Assembly: GCA_913057515.1 (NCBI GenBank)
Contig: CAJXOJ010000004.1
Coordinates: forward strand, 1-35,772
Source of the DNA: an uncultured Cycloclasticus sp.
Lineage (GTDB): Bacteria; Pseudomonadota; Gammaproteobacteria; Methylococcales; Cycloclasticaceae
DNA: 35,772 nt
Direction of reading: 5' to 3'
Below the pieces are notes generated by a model. The model did no database searches. It was not told the origin of the DNA and was given only the letters and a program-made list of their open reading frames with translations. A program made the translations under genes and the position numbers. Shown here one piece after another: positions 4,035 to 26,825 of this stretch (positions are counted from its first letter, which is position 1; each line of letters begins with the position of its first letter).

Positions 4035-4358
4035 TTATTTTTTAGGTGTTAATGCACTCGTGCTTTCTTTAACGATGTTTAAAACTTGCTCGTTATAAGC
4101 TTTTGTATCTTCAAATAAAGCTTTGCTATCAGCAACAACTTTCTCAAGGCCAGACTGTGCTAGCTCAACTTGTTCTTTAGCAAAAGCATTAAGTGCTTCA
4201 GCATCTTTTATGTTAACAGCAGCTTTGATGCGTGCCTCAGTAAGTTCGGCGTAATTTTTAGCCGCTTCTTGCTGAGCGGCTGCCATTTTTTCAAATTGAG
4301 TTTTGTTTAATTCAATTAATTTAGTAATCGGTGCTAAAAAAGCATTAAAGTCGTTCAT
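4035..4358 (-). CDS. phasin family protein (downstream copy)
   Basis: A 107-residue, almost wholly helical protein of the phasin (PhaP-like) family. These are small amphipathic proteins that coat polyhydroxyalkanoate granules or act as general stress and chaperone-like proteins. The order FNAFLAPITKLIELN, then a Gln/Ala/Glu-rich helix, then KDAEALNAFAKEQ and FEDTKAYNEQV, is typical. There is no signal peptide or membrane segment. It is clearly paralogous to the next gene upstream, sharing the phrases LIELN/LVELN, IKDxxAL, ELAQS/ALAQS and the ending KEST/QEST. A GGAG site precedes the ATG. It has its own probable promoter at 4395-4423 and a strong terminator, which suggests an abundant transcript. 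No PHA synthase gene is in the window, so a granule role is inferred. Confidence 0.8.
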   Translation of the reverse strand: MNDFNAFLAPITKLIELNKTQFEKMAAAQQEAAKNYAELTEARIKAAVNIKDAEALNAFAKEQVELAQSGLEKVVADSKALFEDTKAYNEQVLNIVKESTSALTPKK

Positions 4359-4394
4359 GATATCTCTCCGTTAAGGTTTATTTAAGTTAAACAG

Positions 4395-4423
4395 AGTATA
4401 AAACATTTAATATTGCAGCGCAA
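4395..4423 (-). promoter_or_regulatory. candidate sigma-70 promoter for the downstream phasin gene
   Basis: Read on the minus strand: -35 TTGCGC (4418-4423), a 17-base spacer and -10 TATACT (4395-4400), about 37 bases before the phasin ATG. The -10 has five of six consensus bases; the -35 keeps the TTG. Confidence 0.45.
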
Positions 4424-4478
4424 CATTACGTTGTGTTGCCATCCAATATGTTTTATTGGGAAGAGCTCATGTGTTTTA

Positions 4479-4835
4479 TTATTTTTTAGTTTTAAGGCTT
4501 GTTTCTTTTTTTATTTCCTCTTTAAGCTGAGCGGTGCTTTCTTGGAATAGCTGAATCACTTCAGCGTTATAGCCTGTCATGGCTTCAAACATTGTACGGC
4601 TATTACCTACCATTTTTTCATAGTTACTTTGAGCTAAGGCCATTTGGTCGGTGACGAAACTTGCTAAAGCGACGGGGTCTTTAATGTCTGATGCGCTTTG
4701 TATGCGTTGCTGAACCAGAGCACGGTAATCTTCGGCCGCTTTTTTTTGGGCTTGCATAAGCGTATCAAAATGTTGAGTATTTAATTCAACAAGTTTTGAA
4801 ATGGGTTGGGTAAAACTCTTAATATTTTCAACCAT
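4479..4835 (-). CDS. phasin family protein (upstream copy)
   Basis: A 118-residue helical phasin, paralogue of the gene just downstream. It begins MVENIKSFTQPISKLVELN, has the same amphipathic pattern, and ends in a Lys/Glu-rich tail (KEEIKKETSLKTKK). AAGGAG-like bases (AAAAGGAG) sit seven bases before the ATG. Only 23 bases separate it from the stop of pyrF upstream, so read-through from pyrF is possible, although a phasin needs far more expression than pyrF and may have a promoter inside pyrF. The function, a granule surface protein or storage/stress helper, follows from the family; the sequence itself shows only the fold type. Confidence 0.8.
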   Translation of the reverse strand: MVENIKSFTQPISKLVELNTQHFDTLMQAQKKAAEDYRALVQQRIQSASDIKDPVALASFVTDQMALAQSNYEKMVGNSRTMFEAMTGYNAEVIQLFQESTAQLKEEIKKETSLKTKK

Positions 4836-4858: not shown

Positions 4859-5581
4859 TTAATCGCTAAAAATAGCGCGAATGTTATCTTGGATATCCAA
4901 TGCAGCCTGTCGAGGGTCCTCTGCATCACGAATAGGCCGGCCCACCACAATATGGTCTGCTCCGTTGTGAAATGCTTGCTCAACACTGACAACACGCTTT
5001 TGATCATCTTCAGGACGATTATCAACAGGGCGAATACCGGGTGATACAACCAAGAAATTCTTGCCTAACGATTCTCGTAGCCCAGGTGCTTCTAGCCCAG
5101 AAGAAATAACACCATCACAGCCGAGTTCAATGGCCCGTTTCGCACGTGAGGTGACCAGTTCTTCAATATCACACTTAAATCCTAGGTCATCTAAATCACC
5201 ACGATCTAAGCTGGTTAACACTGTGACCGCGAGAACTTTTAGGCTGCCTTTCTGATCAGCGGCAGCTTGCATAATGGCATTGTTGCCATGGATAGTGACA
5301 AAATCGACCTTTTTATCACTAAGTTGTTTAACTGCACGGCCAACGGTTGCGGGTACATCAAAAAACTTGAGGTCGACGAAAATGCGTTTGTTTTGCTCGT
5401 TGAGCCAATCAATCAAGTCAAAATAATTGCCAGACATAAATAGCTCAAGCCCTATTTTGTAGAATACAACACTATCACCGAGTAGGCTCACTAAGGCCTT
5501 AGCGCTTGGGATGTCAGGCACATCTAAGGCAACAATAAGTCGTTCGCTAACGGGAATGGGTTTGTTTGAAAGCCATGACAT
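4859..5581 (-). CDS. pyrF: orotidine 5'-phosphate decarboxylase
   Basis: A 240-residue cytosolic TIM-barrel enzyme that converts OMP to UMP, the last step of de novo pyrimidine synthesis. The strand-1 motif IVALDVPD places the substrate-binding Asp at 20. The catalytic Asp-x-Lys-x-x-x-x-Asp set is seen as VDLKFFDVPAT, with Asp70, Lys72 and Asp75. The phosphate-binding end VVSPGIRPV and VVGRPI are present. The start is supported by GGAG eight bases upstream. E. coli has H-D-I-P-N-T where this protein has F-D-V-P-A-T, a change seen in other bacterial PyrF proteins and not expected to harm the enzyme. It is the first gene of the leftward group and diverges from the large sensor kinase gene. Confidence 0.95.
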   Translation of the reverse strand: MSWLSNKPIPVSERLIVALDVPDIPSAKALVSLLGDSVVFYKIGLELFMSGNYFDLIDWLNEQNKRIFVDLKFFDVPATVGRAVKQLSDKKVDFVTIHGNNAIMQAAADQKGSLKVLAVTVLTSLDRGDLDDLGFKCDIEELVTSRAKRAIELGCDGVISSGLEAPGLRESLGKNFLVVSPGIRPVDNRPEDDQKRVVSVEQAFHNGADHIVVGRPIRDAEDPRQAALDIQDNIRAIFSD

Positions 5582-5784: not shown

Positions 5785-8700
5785 ATGAATGTAAAAAAAT
5801 TTAGCCAGCAACTAAATAGAGCCCTTTTGTTGGGTGCGATATGTTTGTCGGTTGTCTCGTCGGGCTTAATCTCTTATGTTGCATATGAAAAAGAGCGTGC
5901 CGCATATATTAGCCAAAGTGAAGCGCTTACATCAGCATTAGCAAATCAAGTGCTTATTCCTTTTTCAGGAAGTATTGATGAACTATTGAGTCGCACATTC
6001 AAATCGTTTAAAGAATTTCAAAGCCTGCAAAAAATTATTTTGTTTGATGAGGAATTTCAGGAGCAATTTTCGTTAAAAAAAGACAGTGATTATGAGTCAA
6101 TTAGTGGGTGGCAAGATGATAGTCGACGAGGGGTTAATCTTGAGCGAGAAACTGAACATGCATTTTATTTTACCGTTCAAATAAACAAAAGTGGTGGGGA
6201 TACTAGACATTACTTGATGGTTATATTCGATCGTCCATCCGCTATAACCTCTATAGCGTCAATGTTCTTTACTAATATAGGTATTATTATTACTATCGCG
6301 TTCTTTTTGTCGCTCCTAACCAGTTTACTAGCTAGGCGGTTAACTAGGCTGTTAGAAGCCTTCTCGTCTATTATGATTCAAGCAGCTTCAGGGGAAACAG
6401 AGCTTAGAGCTGATTATGACGCGTCTGCTGAATTCAGCCAAATGTCTGAATCATTCAATCAGATGATGGAGGTGATTGAAAAAAGAAGTAGTGAGCTTGA
6501 GTCATCGAGAGACCAAGCTGTTCAAATTGCTAAGATTAAATCTGACTTTGCAGCGAATGTTAGTCATGAGATTAGGACGCCCCTTAATGGGATTTTGGGG
6601 ATGGTTAATCTATTAAAAGAAATGGGTTTGCCAGAACACCAACATGAATATCTAGAGGTGGCGAGTAAGTCGGGTGAATCTTTACTTCAGATGATTAACG
6701 ACGTGTTGGATTTTAGTAAAATGGAATCAGGTCATTTTGAACTAGAGCTAAAAGACCTTGATCTGAGATTATTACTGGAACAAATAGCCCTGTTATATGC
6801 AGAGAAAATTCAAGCGAAAGATCTAGAGCTTTGCTTAGATCTACCAATAGACTCTGCATTATTTATTCGTGCTGATGCCACTAGAATCCGACAAGTTATC
6901 GGTAATTTATTAAGCAATGCCGTTAAGTTCACAACGATGGGGCATATTACGCTCGCCATGAGCGTTGTGTCTAAGTCCAAGGGTCGAGCAATGATTGAGA
7001 TTGCGGTTACAGATACGGGTATAGGTATCCCTGAGGGTTCATTGACCGATATATTCAGGCCGTTTGGTCAAGTGAGTGCAGAAAATTCAAATGAATATGG
7101 GGGAACAGGGTTAGGATTGACGATTGTTAACCAATTGACAGAATTGATGGGTGGTTCTGTTGCTGTGACGAGTGAGGTGGATAAAGGCTCGTGTTTTAAA
7201 GTGCTACTTCCAATGCAAGCTCATGAGATAACTCTTGAAGAGCAGGCCGAAGAAGTCGAGTTGTTAGCAGGTAAAAGAGTTTTGCTGGTTGAGTCGTTTG
7301 ATTCAACAAAAAAATACCTCCAAGGTATATTGGGGTCTTGGGGAGTGGAATGTGAAGTGGTTGATAGCTTAGATGAAGCCGTGCTAAACCTAAACCTTGA
7401 GAGAGACTCTAGAGGACTTCCAGATGTCTGTTTATTCAATGTGGATTACAGCTCAGGTGATATGAGTGCTTTCCTTGCGAGTTTTAAAAAGAATGAGGTG
7501 TTTGCCGATACAAAACTCATTCCAATGGTGAGATTTGGGAGCAGGGTAAGCTCTATTGGTGATTCGGGTGAACTTTTTTCAGGCTCAATAGATCGCCCTA
7601 TGCGTTATGCAAAGTTGAGAATGACATTAGTCGATATATTTTCTGAAGGCAAAGGTCGTGACGAAGAACATCTTGAGAAAAAGGTTAAACCTCACGAGAT
7701 GCTGCAAAGTTTGAGGGTGCTTGTTGTTGATGATAATGCAACCAACTTACTGGTAGCAACGGCAATGCTTAAAGAACTGGGTATCGGGTCCGATGTTGCT
7801 AATAATGGTGAAAAGGCTTTGATAGCCTGTAAAGAAAAAACGTATGACCTTGTTTTGATGGATTGTAATATGCCCGTTATGGATGGTTATGAAGCCACTC
7901 AAGCCATTCGTTTATTAGGTGCGGGCATTAAACAACCCATCATTATCGCGTTAACAGCACAAGATAAGGAAGATCAGCTTGAGCAATGTATTAATAGTGG
8001 CATGAGTGGTTATTTATTAAAGCCATTTCAATTGCCGGATTTGCTGGCGAAACTTGAAAAAGAGCTTGGCTACCCTTTAAATGATGAGCATTTCTCTGAT
8101 ATTGAGCTGGAAGTTTCTGATGGCTCAGTGATTAGTGATTCGGTTTTTAAAGAACTAGTTATTAACACAGGGAGTGGGGTTCAACAAATTGTACAGTCTT
8201 ATTTATTAGACTGCCCGATTTATATCGTGACCTTAACTGCTGCGATGGAAGCCGGTGATACGACTAAATGCCTAGATCTAGCACATAAAATTAAAGGAAG
8301 CTCTCGTAATTTGGGTGCGGAAGGTCTCGTATCTATTTGTTTGGATATAGAAAATATTTGGTCTCAAAAAGTGCCTGATGCGCATACTATTGCATTACTG
8401 GTTGACCGTTTAGAGCATGAGTTCTCGCTAGTTGAAGCAACATTAAATAGCAGGCTAGCCACGTTGCAAATATCATCAAGGGGGCAAACAAAACGAACGA
8501 AGGAAGTTGTTTTAATTGTTGATGATGACCAAAGTACACGAATGACTGTTGCGAGTGTGCTAGAGCGAGAAGGCTATCAAGTGGAGTTAGGGGCAAATGG
8601 TCGAGATGCGGTTAGATTGTTTCAGATACTAAGACCTAACGTGGTTATTATGGATGCGATGATGCCTATTAAAGACGGCTTTGAGGCATGTAGGGAGATT

Positions 8701-10197
8701 AAGGCTTTACCCGGTGGTGCAAATGTTCCGGTACTGATTACAACGGCTTTAGAAAGTGAAAAATCTGTAGATTTAGCATTTGAAAGTGGTGCCGCTGATT
8801 TTGTTCCTAAACCCATCAATTTATCGGTTCTAAGGCAGCGAGTAAAGCGGTTGTTAGCTAAACAATCTGCTGATCAACATGTACATAAATTAGCGTATAA
8901 AGATGCGCTAACAGGGTTGCCCAATCGAGCGGCCTTTGTTGAACAGTTCCAGCAAGAACTTGAACACGCGCAAAGAACAGAAACACAGGTCGCTATCTTT
9001 TTTATCGACCTTGACCGTTTTAAAGATATAAACGATAGCATGGGGCATGGAGCGGGTGATATTCTTCTTAAAGCATTATCTGGACGTTTAAAGAATTGTA
9101 TTCGATCAGGCGATATGTTGGCGCGAATTGGTGGTGATGAGTTTGTTGTTGTATTGAGCGATGTGAAGGGTGAACTAACACCAGACCAGGTGGCTAAATC
9201 AATGCTAGCTGTATTAGAGGAGCCTTTTAACTTAGCTGGAAATGAAGTGTTTGCTGGTGTGAGTATTGGTATTGCCATGTATCCTAATGATGGCTTGTCA
9301 AAAGATGCCTTGTTGAAAAATGCAGATACCGCCATGTATACAGCGAAGGCAGCTGGTAGAAATACCTACCGAACTTATACGCAAGACATGAGTGACGTAT
9401 TAGAACAGAGACTGCGTATAGAAGCTGAGCTAAGAAAAGTGTTGGCAGATAATGAGTTATCGTTGTACTACCAGCCTAAACAAGACACGTTAACGGGTCT
9501 TGTTGTTGGTTCAGAAGCTTTGGTTCGTTGGGAGCATCATTTAAGAGGTATGGTGTCACCAGCTGAGTTTATACCGGTTGCTGAGGAGATGGGCTTGATC
9601 AAAGAAATTGGCCTATGGGTGTTGGATACAGCCTGTGCTACCGCTAAAAAATGGCAAACTGAGAGTGCTTACTATGGCACGGTAGCGGTTAACGTATCGG
9701 CGGTGCAAATGGCGGAAGAAAACTTTGTGACCTTGGTAAATACTTGTTTGAGTAAGTATGAGTTAGAGCCGAAGTATTTGGAGCTAGAAGTTACCGAAAC
9801 GATGGTGTTAGAGAATGTTGATGCCATGTTAGGGAAATTGAATGAAATTAAAGAAATGGGTGTGAGTATTTCTATAGATGATTTTGGCACAGGCTATTCG
9901 TCGTTTAGTTATATAAAACAATTACCGGCAAATACCTTGAAATTAGATATGGAATTCATAAAAGAAATACCTGCGAATAAAGCAGATATGGCTGTTGTAG
10001 ATGGTATGATTGTTCTCGCGCATAATTTAGGTATGAAAGTGGTTGCGGAGGGTGTTGAGTCGCAGGAACAGTACGACTTCTTAGCTGAACATAAGTGTGA
10101 CCTGATTCAAGGTTATTTGATTAACAAACCATTACCTGAAGACGCGTTTATTGAAGAGTATGGTGAGGTATCTAAAGAAACTGAAAGTAACCATTAA
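5785..10197 (+). CDS. membrane hybrid histidine kinase with REC-REC-HPt-REC-GGDEF-EAL (phosphorelay and c-di-GMP enzyme in one chain)
   Basis: A 1470-residue inner-membrane sensor. Transmembrane helices at about 13-33 and 160-182 bracket a periplasmic domain of about 125 residues with no motif I recognise. HAMP follows at about 183-235. HisKA has phospho-accepting His261 in NVSHEIRTPLNG. The HATPase has N-box NLLSNAVKF, G1 DTGIGIP (410-416) and G2 GGTGLGL (439-445). Receiver 1 (about 497-620) is degenerate: Asn552 stands where the phospho-Asp should be. Receiver 2 (643-760) is intact with Asp649, Asp650, Asp693, Thr724 and Lys746. HPt has His834 in AHKIKGSS. Receiver 3 (907-1025) is intact with Asp957 and Lys1009. 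GGDEF (1116-1120) has the RxxD inhibitory site at 1107-1110. EAL (1244-1246) keeps Asn1303, Glu1335, Asp1365-Asp1366, Lys1386 and Glu1422, so phosphodiesterase activity looks possible. The kinase half resembles BarA/GacS. The gene is monocistronic or leads the next gene; its ribosome site is weak. Confidence 0.93.
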   Translation: MNVKKFSQQLNRALLLGAICLSVVSSGLISYVAYEKERAAYISQSEALTSALANQVLIPFSGSIDELLSRTFKSFKEFQSLQKIILFDEEFQEQFSLKKDSDYESISGWQDDSRRGVNLERETEHAFYFTVQINKSGGDTRHYLMVIFDRPSAITSIASMFFTNIGIIITIAFFLSLLTSLLARRLTRLLEAFSSIMIQAASGETELRADYDASAEFSQMSESFNQMMEVIEKRSSELESSRDQAVQIAKIKSDFAANVSHEIRTPLNGILGMVNLLKEMGLPEHQHEYLEVASKSGESLLQMINDVLDFSKMESGHFELELKDLDLRLLLEQIALLYAEKIQAKDLELCLDLPIDSALFIRADATRIRQVIGNLLSNAVKFTTMGHITLAMSVVSKSKGRAMIEIAVTDTGIGIPEGSLTDIFRPFGQVSAENSNEYGGTGLGLTIVNQLTELMGGSVAVTSEVDKGSCFKVLLPMQAHEITLEEQAEEVELLAGKRVLLVESFDSTKKYLQGILGSWGVECEVVDSLDEAVLNLNLERDSRGLPDVCLFNVDYSSGDMSAFLASFKKNEVFADTKLIPMVRFGSRVSSIGDSGELFSGSIDRPMRYAKLRMTLVDIFSEGKGRDEEHLEKKVKPHEMLQSLRVLVVDDNATNLLVATAMLKELGIGSDVANNGEKALIACKEKTYDLVLMDCNMPVMDGYEATQAIRLLGAGIKQPIIIALTAQDKEDQLEQCINSGMSGYLLKPFQLPDLLAKLEKELGYPLNDEHFSDIELEVSDGSVISDSVFKELVINTGSGVQQIVQSYLLDCPIYIVTLTAAMEAGDTTKCLDLAHKIKGSSRNLGAEGLVSICLDIENIWSQKVPDAHTIALLVDRLEHEFSLVEATLNSRLATLQISSRGQTKRTKEVVLIVDDDQSTRMTVASVLEREGYQVELGANGRDAVRLFQILRPNVVIMDAMMPIKDGFEACREIKALPGGANVPVLITTALESEKSVDLAFESGAADFVPKPINLSVLRQRVKRLLAKQSADQHVHKLAYKDALTGLPNRAAFVEQFQQELEHAQRTETQVAIFFIDLDRFKDINDSMGHGAGDILLKALSGRLKNCIRSGDMLARIGGDEFVVVLSDVKGELTPDQVAKSMLAVLEEPFNLAGNEVFAGVSIGIAMYPNDGLSKDALLKNADTAMYTAKAAGRNTYRTYTQDMSDVLEQRLRIEAELRKVLADNELSLYYQPKQDTLTGLVVGSEALVRWEHHLRGMVSPAEFIPVAEEMGLIKEIGLWVLDTACATAKKWQTESAYYGTVAVNVSAVQMAEENFVTLVNTCLSKYELEPKYLELEVTETMVLENVDAMLGKLNEIKEMGVSISIDDFGTGYSSFSYIKQLPANTLKLDMEFIKEIPANKADMAVVDGMIVLAHNLGMKVVAEGVESQEQYDFLAEHKCDLIQGYLINKPLPEDAFIEEYGEVSKETESNH

Positions 10198-10278: not shown

Positions 10279-10845
10279 GTGCATATTATTTACTTACATG
10301 GCTTTTGTAGTTCGGTGGCTTCATTTAAAGCGCAGTTAGTTAAAAACTATATTGAGCAACTTGATGAGGACTCTGTGTTCCTTTGCGATTTACCGCCTTC
10401 TCCTGTTCAAGCAATGTCAATCATTGAGTCGCATATCGCGAGCTTAGGCGACACTCCATGGGGGCTGGTTGGTAGTTCATTGGGTGGTTTTTATGCCACT
10501 TATTTGAGTGAGAAGTATAATAAAAAAGCAGTACTAATTAATCCAGCAGTAGATGCTCAGGTGCTACTACGGCATGTGTTAGGTAAGAATGAAAACTATC
10601 ACACCGGTGAGGTTTTTGACTTTACTGAAGAGCATTTGAGCGAACTGGAAAAGCTGCACGTGCCGACACTGACCCATGCTGAAAACTTTCTTTTGTTAAC
10701 GCAAACAGGGGATGAGGTTTTAGACTTTCAAAAAGGCGTGGATTATTACCAAGGCAGTCGGCAAGTAGTGATTGAGGGCGGTGATCACGGTTTTACCGAT
10801 TACGCAAATTACTTAGATAAAACGTTCGATTTCCTATCGTCATAA
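10279..10845 (+). CDS. yqiA: YqiA/YcfP-family alpha/beta hydrolase (esterase)
   Basis: A 188-residue small alpha/beta hydrolase of the YqiA/YcfP family, compact esterases acting in the cytosol on short acyl esters. The start MHIIYLHGF matches the typical strand plus oxyanion motif of YqiA (LYLHGFNSS in E. coli). The nucleophile elbow GSSLGGFYATYL gives Ser67. The acid is probably Asp145 in TGDEVLDF, and the histidine is His170 in GGDHGF. The start codon is GTG; no ATG fits, and the conserved motif begins right after it. The ribosome site is weak (GCGAG). It lies 81 bases after the sensor kinase gene. E. coli yqiA neighbours parE; that link is not seen here. The natural substrate is unknown. 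Confidence 0.75.
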   Translation: MHIIYLHGFCSSVASFKAQLVKNYIEQLDEDSVFLCDLPPSPVQAMSIIESHIASLGDTPWGLVGSSLGGFYATYLSEKYNKKAVLINPAVDAQVLLRHVLGKNENYHTGEVFDFTEEHLSELEKLHVPTLTHAENFLLLTQTGDEVLDFQKGVDYYQGSRQVVIEGGDHGFTDYANYLDKTFDFLSS

Positions 10846-25721: not shown

Positions 25722-26825
25722 ATGCTGCAAAGTCATCTGGATGGCATGATTTTGCGTGTCAAAAAAAATGAGGAGATGTTTAAGCGCTTCCAAGAGTTGG
25801 ATATGCGTTTATTATCTCTTAACTCGTTAAGGGAGTTAGTCGAGCATATTTATACAGATGCTCAGCTGGTGTTTAACCTTGAGTCTTTGTCGTTGGTGTT
25901 GGCGGATGAGAAAAGTGAAATCAAACAGTTTTTAACCGAAGATGGCTTTAGGTTTGATGAATATCAAAGCGTCATTGTGCTATCGCAGACGGCTGTGTTT
26001 AAGGATAAGTTGGGCCTCTCTCAACGTATTGTGTTGGGCGATGCCGAGAAGGTGCTGCCAAAAGAATTTTGGCCTGATAACACCAGTAGACCTAAAACAG
26101 TCGCGATTATTCCCTTATTAAGGCGTGGCGTTTACCTTGGTTGCATGGTGTTTGGAAGTGATGAGGTCGATCGCTTTCAAGCGGAGATGGCAACCTACTT
26201 TTTGGATCGCTTGGGTAAGGTGCTCAGTGTTTGTATGGAAAACACATTGAATTATGAGCAGCTGAGGCGAAACAGTTTATTTGACACCTTAACAGGGGTT
26301 AATAACCGCCGGTTTTTTGAACAACGTATGGATGAAGAAATTTTGCGTTCGCTGAGAACGGGGGACAGTTTGTCTTGTTTGTTTATTGATATCGATTTTT
26401 TTAAGAAGGTTAACGATAATTATGGTCACCAAGTCGGTGATATAGCGTTGCGACATGTGGCAGAGCAATTGCGAAGCCAATTAAGAAGCAATGATATTTT
26501 AGCGCGATACGGGGGGGAAGAATTTATTGTTGTGCTACCCACGGCATCTGAAAAAAAAGGTATAGAAGTGGCTGATAGGATGCGCGAAGCCATTGCAAAG
26601 ACACCGTTGAGCCTTACCAGTGGCGAGGTGTTAAATTTAACGGTTTCGATGGGTGTTTCAACATTTGTAGTAAATGAACCGGGCGTATCAAAAGCCCTAG
26701 GCCGATCGGTGTTGATTGAAGTGGCTGATAAAGCACTGTATGCAGCAAAGAAATCGGGTAGAAACTGTGTGGTCAGTGGCGGTGAGTTGGTGGCTATTTC
26801 AGGCGCTAAAAGCCAGTCATCTTAG
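25722..26825 (+). CDS. diguanylate cyclase with N-terminal DUF484/GAF-like domain
   Basis: A 367-residue soluble protein. Residues about 1-180 resemble the DUF484 family, a GAF-like sensor fold: an N-terminal coiled coil around LRVKKNEEMFKRFQELD, then beta-rich sequence with VAIIPLLRRGVYLGCMVFG. Residues about 182-355 form a GGDEF domain with DTLTGVNNRRFF, IDIDFFKKVND and the active-site RYGGEEF (262-268), the GGEEF form found in active cyclases. An RxxD product-inhibition site lies at 255-258. It should make c-di-GMP from two GTP. The upstream frame stays open without any ATG, GTG or TTG until a stop, so the ATG at 25722 is the start. It begins 26 bases after ligA and is probably cotranscribed. 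Confidence 0.88.
   Translation: MLQSHLDGMILRVKKNEEMFKRFQELDMRLLSLNSLRELVEHIYTDAQLVFNLESLSLVLADEKSEIKQFLTEDGFRFDEYQSVIVLSQTAVFKDKLGLSQRIVLGDAEKVLPKEFWPDNTSRPKTVAIIPLLRRGVYLGCMVFGSDEVDRFQAEMATYFLDRLGKVLSVCMENTLNYEQLRRNSLFDTLTGVNNRRFFEQRMDEEILRSLRTGDSLSCLFIDIDFFKKVNDNYGHQVGDIALRHVAEQLRSQLRSNDILARYGGEEFIVVLPTASEKKGIEVADRMREAIAKTPLSLTSGEVLNLTVSMGVSTFVVNEPGVSKALGRSVLIEVADKALYAAKKSGRNCVVSGGELVAISGAKSQSS

Follow-up and report, generated by a model that had tools for sequence, protein, structure and literature searches.

The gene and its product

The window analysed here is the whole of a 35,772-nucleotide (nt) stretch of DNA from an uncultured Cycloclasticus sp. (GenBank assembly GCA_913057515.1, contig CAJXOJ010000004.1, positions 1 to 35,772). 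On its forward strand, 5785–10197, lies an open reading frame (ORF) with an ATG start that encodes a protein of 1470 amino acids. In this single chain, as defined by the ORF and its Pfam matches, a sensor, a hybrid kinase, a phosphorelay and a GGDEF-EAL pair for cyclic di-GMP (c-di-GMP) follow one another.

Two hydrophobic segments located by hydropathy, residues about 10–34 (5812–5886) and about 153–186 (6241–6342), flank a periplasmic part, residues 35–158 (5887–6258). Next come HAMP (PF00672; residues 181–232, 6325–6480), HisKA (PF00512; 252–316, 6538–6732), with the phospho-acceptor H261 encoded at 6565–6567, and HATPase_c (PF02518; 364–478, 6874–7218). The first receiver, REC1 (residues about 495–620, 7267–7644; family hidden Markov model (HMM) and residue counts), is followed by REC2 (PF00072; 645–757, 7717–8055; D693 codon 7861–7863), HPt (PF01627; 801–867, 8185–8385; H834 codon 8284–8286) and the output receiver REC3 (about 905–1026, 8497–8862; D957 codon 8653–8655; family HMM), for which the PleD receiver was among the best PDB matches. 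Pfam recorded two Response_reg stretches and gave the position of the best only (645–757), and the borders of REC1 (495–619) and REC3 (906–1025) were placed by family HMMs. The GGDEF domain (PF00990; 1037–1193, 8893–9363) has an intact RIGGDEF (1114–1120) and RSGD I-site (1107–1110). The EAL domain (PF00563; 1214–1449, 9424–10131), with EALVRW at 1244–1249 and DDFGTGYS at 1365–1372, has all eight of the positions that we take to be catalytic.

A HisKA His, a receiver Asp, an HPt His and a second receiver Asp are all found in the one ORF, and the GGDEF, RxxD and EAL catalytic residues are complete, as predicted for a bifunctional enzyme. The sequence-only reading of this DNA had named the same domain order, the residues H261, D693, H834 and D957 and intact GGDEF and EAL domains, all exactly as recovered here by Pfam and the residue check. 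It had also called the first receiver degenerate, and Asn (N552) does stand at the phospho-site where Asp is usual. In an AlphaFold model of residues 640–1030, a four-helix bundle, the HPt domain, is flanked by two receiver folds (mean predicted local distance difference test (pLDDT) 83.2).

Occurrence and conservation of the family

The window protein was searched against three overlapping genome samples; the genome of the window occurs in each of them, and G006 and G286 in two apiece (L, G and C numbers are our labels for loci, genomes and contigs). Matches over most of its length were found in 39 of the 201 genomes sampled from the order, representing 10 of 48 genera (E≤1e-180), in 20 of 369 genomes in the class sample (E≤1e-150), and in two of 398 in the phylum sample (E≤1e-150), both from the same class. 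Fourteen of the 20 class matches have the fused form, including G392 and G541, where the 5′ part is cut by the contig. G413 and G511 are also cut by contig ends, and four matches have other arrangements: G336, G355 and G465 carry REC-GGDEF-EAL genes, while G373 encodes a REC-REC-GGDEF-EAL-REC protein.

Ten further genomes of the genus have full-length orthologs, 58–84 % identical; together with the window protein, these are referred to as the window's ortholog group. Relatives in other families are about 33–42 % identical. Given the ten orthologs and these more distant relatives, the architecture is not a chance product. Nor is it unique: it recurs within the Gammaproteobacteria, and one-chain histidine kinase–response regulator–HPt–response regulator (HK-RR-HPt-RR) proteins are a known class. 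Fused members are spread over 15 family codes in the order and class samples, as found by homology searches, which would miss an unrelated protein of the same domain order. Among the titles and abstract openings listed from an open-access subset of the literature, none names this family, which is weak evidence of absence. A search with two GGDEF-domain patterns, which is not a census, found no kinase- or HPt-linked GGDEF-EAL chain in ORFs of at least 200 amino acids among the best 80 of 598 relatives, and a plasmid search gave no match at E 1e-100.

Residues were compared in an alignment of 60 rows that includes near-copies and gives each half of L085 a row of its own, with gaps left out of the counts. 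H261 is His in 56/56 and D693 is Asp in 59/59, the HPt His is kept in 56/59 and the REC3 Asp in 54/59, and the EAL Glu1244 is kept in 59/59. The second Gly of GGDEF is replaced by Ser in two of 59 rows (L065 and L066). Every row has all eight EAL positions except L087, whose reading departs near its end. At the REC1 phospho-site, Asp was found in 44 of the 57 rows that have a residue there, and Asn in 11/11 proteins of the window's ortholog group. The phospho- and catalytic residues of the relay and the enzymes are all intact in that group. L002, L083 and L084, the only rows in which the HPt His is missing, have no REC3 Asp either, and no row has lost the His and kept the Asp.

Some family members depart from the common form. 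L065 (4375–8469) and L066 (4887–8981) are fused members that lack REC1 and have GSDEF for GGDEF, with the EAL positions intact. In L064 (1048–6755), a fused member truncated by the contig end directly adjoins another hybrid HPt kinase. The genes in L086 and L087 appear to be broken (a split ORF and an altered reading near the end, respectively) in genomes listed as 99–100 % complete.

Sensor, gene neighbourhoods and second copies

The periplasmic part had been said to match no known sensor domain. This is correct for the window copy by sequence alone, as its N-terminal 180 residues matched no relevant Pfam family, but it does not extend to all of its relatives. At E≤1, sCache_4 (PF09984) was found in 19 of 36 family N-termini (best 1.8e-9) and CHASE8 in four of 36; E. 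coli BarA scores 174.8 bits against sCache_4. The best PDB match of the family sensor profile was 5o7j (E 8e-4), described as the GacS sensor (PMC8639471). A model of the window's sensor (pLDDT 84.2, predicted template modelling (pTM) score 0.73) consists of a long helix, a second helix and five strands. Its best Foldseek match was the sensor domain of sporulation kinase D (KinD; 4jgo, E 5.9e-4, TM score about 0.4), and the other top matches are also extracellular sensor domains; all are weak (TM about 0.4, three below E 0.001), 5o7j was not among the 50 matches shown, and unrelated small-GTPase and Roadblock folds appear lower down. The predicted fold gives some backing to a Cache/PDC-like sensor. 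In the alignment, the window sensor is shortened, lacking a segment of about 20 residues present in relatives, and it is kept in all 11 proteins of the ortholog group. The periplasmic part is very probably a shortened and diverged sCache-type domain, and the sequence similarities suggest that it is probably affiliated with the BarA/GacS type.

A second member of the family, L002, is present in the window's genome (C2, 1441–5889, reverse strand), and 12 genes homologous to the PF04392 gene beside it were used to build an HMM with which solute-binding-protein genes were found. Outside the window's ortholog group, 43 of the 45 assessable fused genes are immediately preceded by such a gene on the same strand, L038 and L057 being the exceptions. 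L046, L047, L053 and L058, cut at contig ends, were left out, and the 43 include L079 with a partial binding-protein ORF, the broken gene of L086, and L044 and L045, which depend on the choice of kinase start codon. An N-terminal binding-protein fusion in L044 (an 1839-amino-acid ORF) was considered and dropped, since the binding protein is encoded by a different ORF that overlaps this one; the extra N-terminal length is most likely spurious, the DNA being GC-rich. Many of the kinases that solute-binding proteins activate are reported to be encoded beside them (PMC11113362). In most of this family the sensor is probably served by, and would contact, the protein encoded upstream.

In the window's ortholog group, a binding-protein gene was found directly upstream in none of the 11 members. 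The fused gene is located between pyrF and yqiA-DUF2797 in 11/11. In the window, the divergent pyrF (4859–5581, reverse strand) occupies the place of the relatives' binding-protein gene, and the yqiA-like gene (UPF0227; 10279–10845, forward strand) is downstream. L019 and L020, the nearest relatives outside the group, have the binding-protein gene, so its loss is best assigned to the lineage of the window. In the genome of the window (89.9 % complete), there are two PF04392 matches in all, one beside L002 and one beside L176.

The origin of the fused gene was examined in a kinase-plus-HPt tree of 63 rows, made by a quick method and rooted on six BarA-profile kinases chosen as the outgroup. Of 42 fused proteins, 41 fall in one starred clade, and the six outgroup kinases, including E. 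coli BarA, make up a separate starred branch. L057, the last of the fused proteins, is placed among unfused kinases. Owing to L057, a single origin of all fused kinases was rejected by the approximately unbiased test (p 0.027), a modest and tree-dependent result. Unfused kinases near the fused clade have a separate REC-GGDEF-EAL gene beside them in L059, L060, L085, L198 and L201, a separate REC-GGDEF gene in L202 and L207 (and about 900 nt away in L206), and other REC genes in L200, L204 and L205. No output gene was seen beside the kinase in L199, and contig ends truncate both L197 and L203. Around three of the outgroup kinases (L209–L211) there was no neighbouring REC gene. A candidate stand-alone regulator, L061, was discarded as its ORF runs to the contig end.

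The kinase and regulator genes overlap in L059 and L060 and are 12 nt apart in the same frame in L085. A binding-protein gene is also found upstream of the split kinases of L059 and L060, and was not found upstream of L085, L198, L201 or E. coli barA. The regulators of L198 and L201 carry PAS. The split forms are separated at the HPt/REC3 junction, which in fused proteins spans 9–24 residues (median 16; 76 ORF entries, duplicates included). Because related kinases adjoin a separate REC-GGDEF-EAL gene and the division falls at this junction, the fused gene looks like a joined operon rather than a captured BarA/GacS, judged by comparison of these genes. We infer fusion rather than fission, with the caveat that the root of the tree is uncertain. 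In L204 (2850–7413), a related HPt kinase gene is followed by a REC-sigma54-activator gene, and this kinase branch pairs with different neighbouring output types.

The idea that the output had been captured by fusion stands in outline, since several of the nearest unfused kinases adjoin a separate REC-GGDEF-EAL or REC-GGDEF gene, but the kinase concerned is not a BarA/GacS ortholog. Orthology was rejected because the window protein scores 435.9 bits against the NCBIfam BarA profile NF008318, far below the cut-off of 890, and does not group with E. coli BarA, the two being on separate starred branches of the quick tree. Another kinase in the same genome, L176 (with L213; C18, about 42505–45300), is a 788-amino-acid sensor-HisKA-HATPase-REC-HPt protein that fits the BarA profile. 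The case for L176 as simply the organism's BarA is weakened by the PF04392 gene just upstream of it, which was not picked up by the family HMM and probably belongs to another subfamily.

L002 is one of nine second copies (copy B; the window type is copy A) found in 18 genomes of the genus. It encodes 1482 amino acids, is 35 % identical to the window protein over residues 153–1455, and is overlapped by 8 nt by its binding-protein gene (5882–6847). It has lost the HPt His and has Glu for the output-receiver Asp, with GGDEF and EAL intact. Four second copies keep both the HPt His and the REC3 Asp (L056, L079, L082 and a gene in G047 recovered as two contig-edge halves), L080 and L081 have lost the REC3 Asp alone, and L002, L083 and L084 have lost both. 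In the five dead copies, the Asp is replaced by Glu (four) or Asn (one). In the tree built from the C-terminal half, the dead copies make up a starred clade in which the three both-lost copies are nested as a starred clade of their own, and the kinase-plus-HPt tree agrees. REC3 thus seems to have been inactivated before HPt, an order that would follow if REC3 is what HPt serves.

In the five genomes that contain both copies and a dead copy B, the two copies differ in which end is conserved. Identity among copies A compared with that among copies B was 90.7 % vs 59.8 % for REC3 and 73.7 % vs 51.3 % for HPt, against 82.4 % vs 82.5 % for GGDEF+EAL and 77.0 % vs 78.5 % for the kinase. The reverse was found for REC2 (67.2 % vs 76.3 %) and for the sensor (44.8 % vs 67.7 %), which is the least conserved domain of copy A. 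Relative to GGDEF+EAL, the column-bootstrap 95 % interval of the A–B difference is 22.8 to 39.1 for REC3, 13.3 to 31.8 for HPt and −31.9 to −13.7 for the sensor, where columns are taken as independent and the shared tree is uncorrected. The HPt and REC3 differences persist with the motif residues left out. All five dead copies co-occur with copy A, which is too few for significance in incomplete genomes. Two intact second copies are in genomes without copy A (G053 and G047) and two in genomes with it (G006 and G059), and in four genomes (G013, G023, G027 and G062) copy A was found without a second copy at the search threshold. This mirrored decay is the part of the analysis most worth following; neither the second copy nor the relatives' binding-protein gene was visible to a reader of the window alone.

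Elsewhere in the window, two small phasin-like genes (4035–4835, reverse strand) separate pyrF from a class II aldolase gene and suggest polyhydroxyalkanoate storage, and a separate GGDEF protein of 367 amino acids is encoded between ligA and gyrA (25722–26825, forward strand).

The proposed relay, its alternatives and known systems

The window protein is probably a one-chain phosphorelay with an sCache-type sensor that steers its own GGDEF and EAL domains, and that arose when a kinase-HPt gene was joined with a REC-GGDEF-EAL gene, the binding-protein gene being lost in the window's group. The periplasmic sensor would set autophosphorylation by HisKA/HATPase at H261, and phosphate would pass to D693 in REC2, H834 in HPt and D957 in REC3, within the chain or across a dimer, skipping the dead REC1. 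Phosphorylated REC3 would then set the ratio of cyclase (GGDEF) to phosphodiesterase (EAL) activity in the attached domains, and by analogy with CdgS and CfcR (see below) the cyclase output would most likely be raised. In the proposed history, the kinase-HPt gene was joined to an adjacent REC-GGDEF-EAL gene and, following loss of the binding-protein gene at this place and drift of the sensor, the ortholog group probably answers a changed signal. An internal relay had been suggested from the window alone; the residues and their order bear this out, and comparison with the relatives makes the predicted phosphotransfer more plausible. If so, an entire signalling pathway from periplasmic sensor to second messenger is packed into one chain across 15 family-level groups of the sampled Gammaproteobacteria, and the split versions that still exist are natural controls.

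Several points weigh against this interpretation. The relay and the enzyme activity of family members are predicted from residues. As GGDEF and EAL are both intact, the net activity is not readable from sequence. In the AlphaFold model of REC2-HPt-REC3, the individual domains are sound, but with a pTM of 0.41 and low-confidence linkers the model does not show HPt docked on REC3 or give relative domain placement. The joint loss of HPt and REC3 residues may represent one event of each kind in one clade (three and five rows). In CdgS, the effect of the REC Asp on cyclase efficiency is reported as modest, 12.6 against 9.5 (PMC9927289). Finally, HPt could also phosphorylate free receivers, and a UvrY/GacA-like regulator is encoded in the genome.

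Among the alternatives, copy A may be uncoupled and signal-blind, with the binding protein lost, the sensor decaying and the kinase constitutive. None of the 11 copy-A genes adjoins a binding-protein gene, and the sensor is both shortened and poorly conserved, but we consider this unlikely because the sensor is kept in 11/11, the window copy is predicted to be a well-folded helix-plus-sheet domain, and fast change in the sensor fits a new ligand too. It is also unlikely that the GGDEF-EAL part is steered mainly by direct conformational coupling along the chain from sensor to enzyme, the relay being vestigial or only modulating, as is said to occur without a relay in NspS-MbaA. The five copy-B proteins that lack the REC3 Asp, three of them also without the HPt His, have intact GGDEF and EAL and a conserved sensor, showing that the enzymes can be maintained without the relay; copy A is the opposite, with REC3 and HPt conserved and the sensor least so.

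A doubtful proposal is that copies A and B share one divided receptor, in which B (binding protein, sensor, kinase and REC2) takes the signal in and A (HPt and REC3) passes it to c-di-GMP via mixed dimers or from chain to chain; the enzyme state of B would be fixed by the replacement of Asp by Glu that most dead copies B have in REC3. The four genomes that have A without B indicate that A does not need B everywhere, which counts against this as a general rule. Least probable of all is that the protein is the organism's GacS/BarA, with HPt phosphorylating a separate GacA/UvrY and the GGDEF-EAL tail as a side branch, for although its best kinase-side NCBIfam match is BarA (over 224–861) and the genome's UvrY/GacA-like regulator scores 226.7 bits (cut-off 280), the BarA score and tree position given above oppose it, as does L176, which matches the profile from position 3, though it is long-branched and behind a PF04392 gene.

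The two copies of one genus, which keep opposite ends of the machine, make it testable what a relay adds over direct coupling in c-di-GMP receptors.

BarA/GacS shares its layout up to HPt with the window protein, and sCache_4 is matched by the window's relatives. However, BarA/GacS is not an ortholog, and the window protein carries its own output and has relatives linked to a binding-protein gene. Such a link recalls LuxP-LuxQ and TorT-TorS, where a periplasmic binding protein is reportedly paired with a hybrid kinase; LuxQ and TorS are said to lack GGDEF-EAL, and MbaA to lack a kinase and relay. In NspS-MbaA, a binding protein is described as paired with a receptor (PMC8967002, PMC5646818). 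The relatives of the window protein resemble these systems in combining a binding protein with a c-di-GMP receptor or hybrid kinase.

The closest relay logic is that reported for CdgK/CdgS of Anabaena PCC 7120, in which the HisKA, REC2 and HPt residues are needed and REC1 is dispensable, and phosphate passes in vitro from HK-REC1 to REC2-HPt, the route ending at the REC of CdgS (PMC9927289). As in the window protein, a HisKA-HATPase-REC1-REC2-HPt kinase is involved, in this case passing phosphate to the REC of a GGDEF protein with raised cyclase activity, but CdgK and CdgS are two cyanobacterial proteins with CHASE/PAS/GAF sensors, and in the parts of PMC9927289 consulted an EAL domain of CdgS is not mentioned. 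For CfcR of Pseudomonas putida, both the REC Asp and a separate kinase, CfcA, are reported to be needed for cyclase activity in the cell (PMC4951495). CfcR is likewise a REC-…-GGDEF-EAL regulator under kinase control, but is encoded separately from CfcA and contains PAS, which the window protein lacks. A HK-GGDEF fusion was noted in 2005 (PMC1183210), and a census of the HKRR1HPtRR2 ‘one protein phosphorelay’ lists 982 proteins from 618 species (PMC4558063). Proteins of that class likewise unite a kinase, a receiver, HPt and a further receiver in a single chain; the census covers HK, RR and HPt domains and, in the parts consulted, names neither this family nor a GGDEF-EAL output. One-chain relays, and the same relay logic across two proteins in CdgK/CdgS, are therefore already known, and what is new here are the split relatives divided at the HPt/REC junction, the sCache sensor together with the missing binding-protein gene, and the mirrored decay of the second copy.

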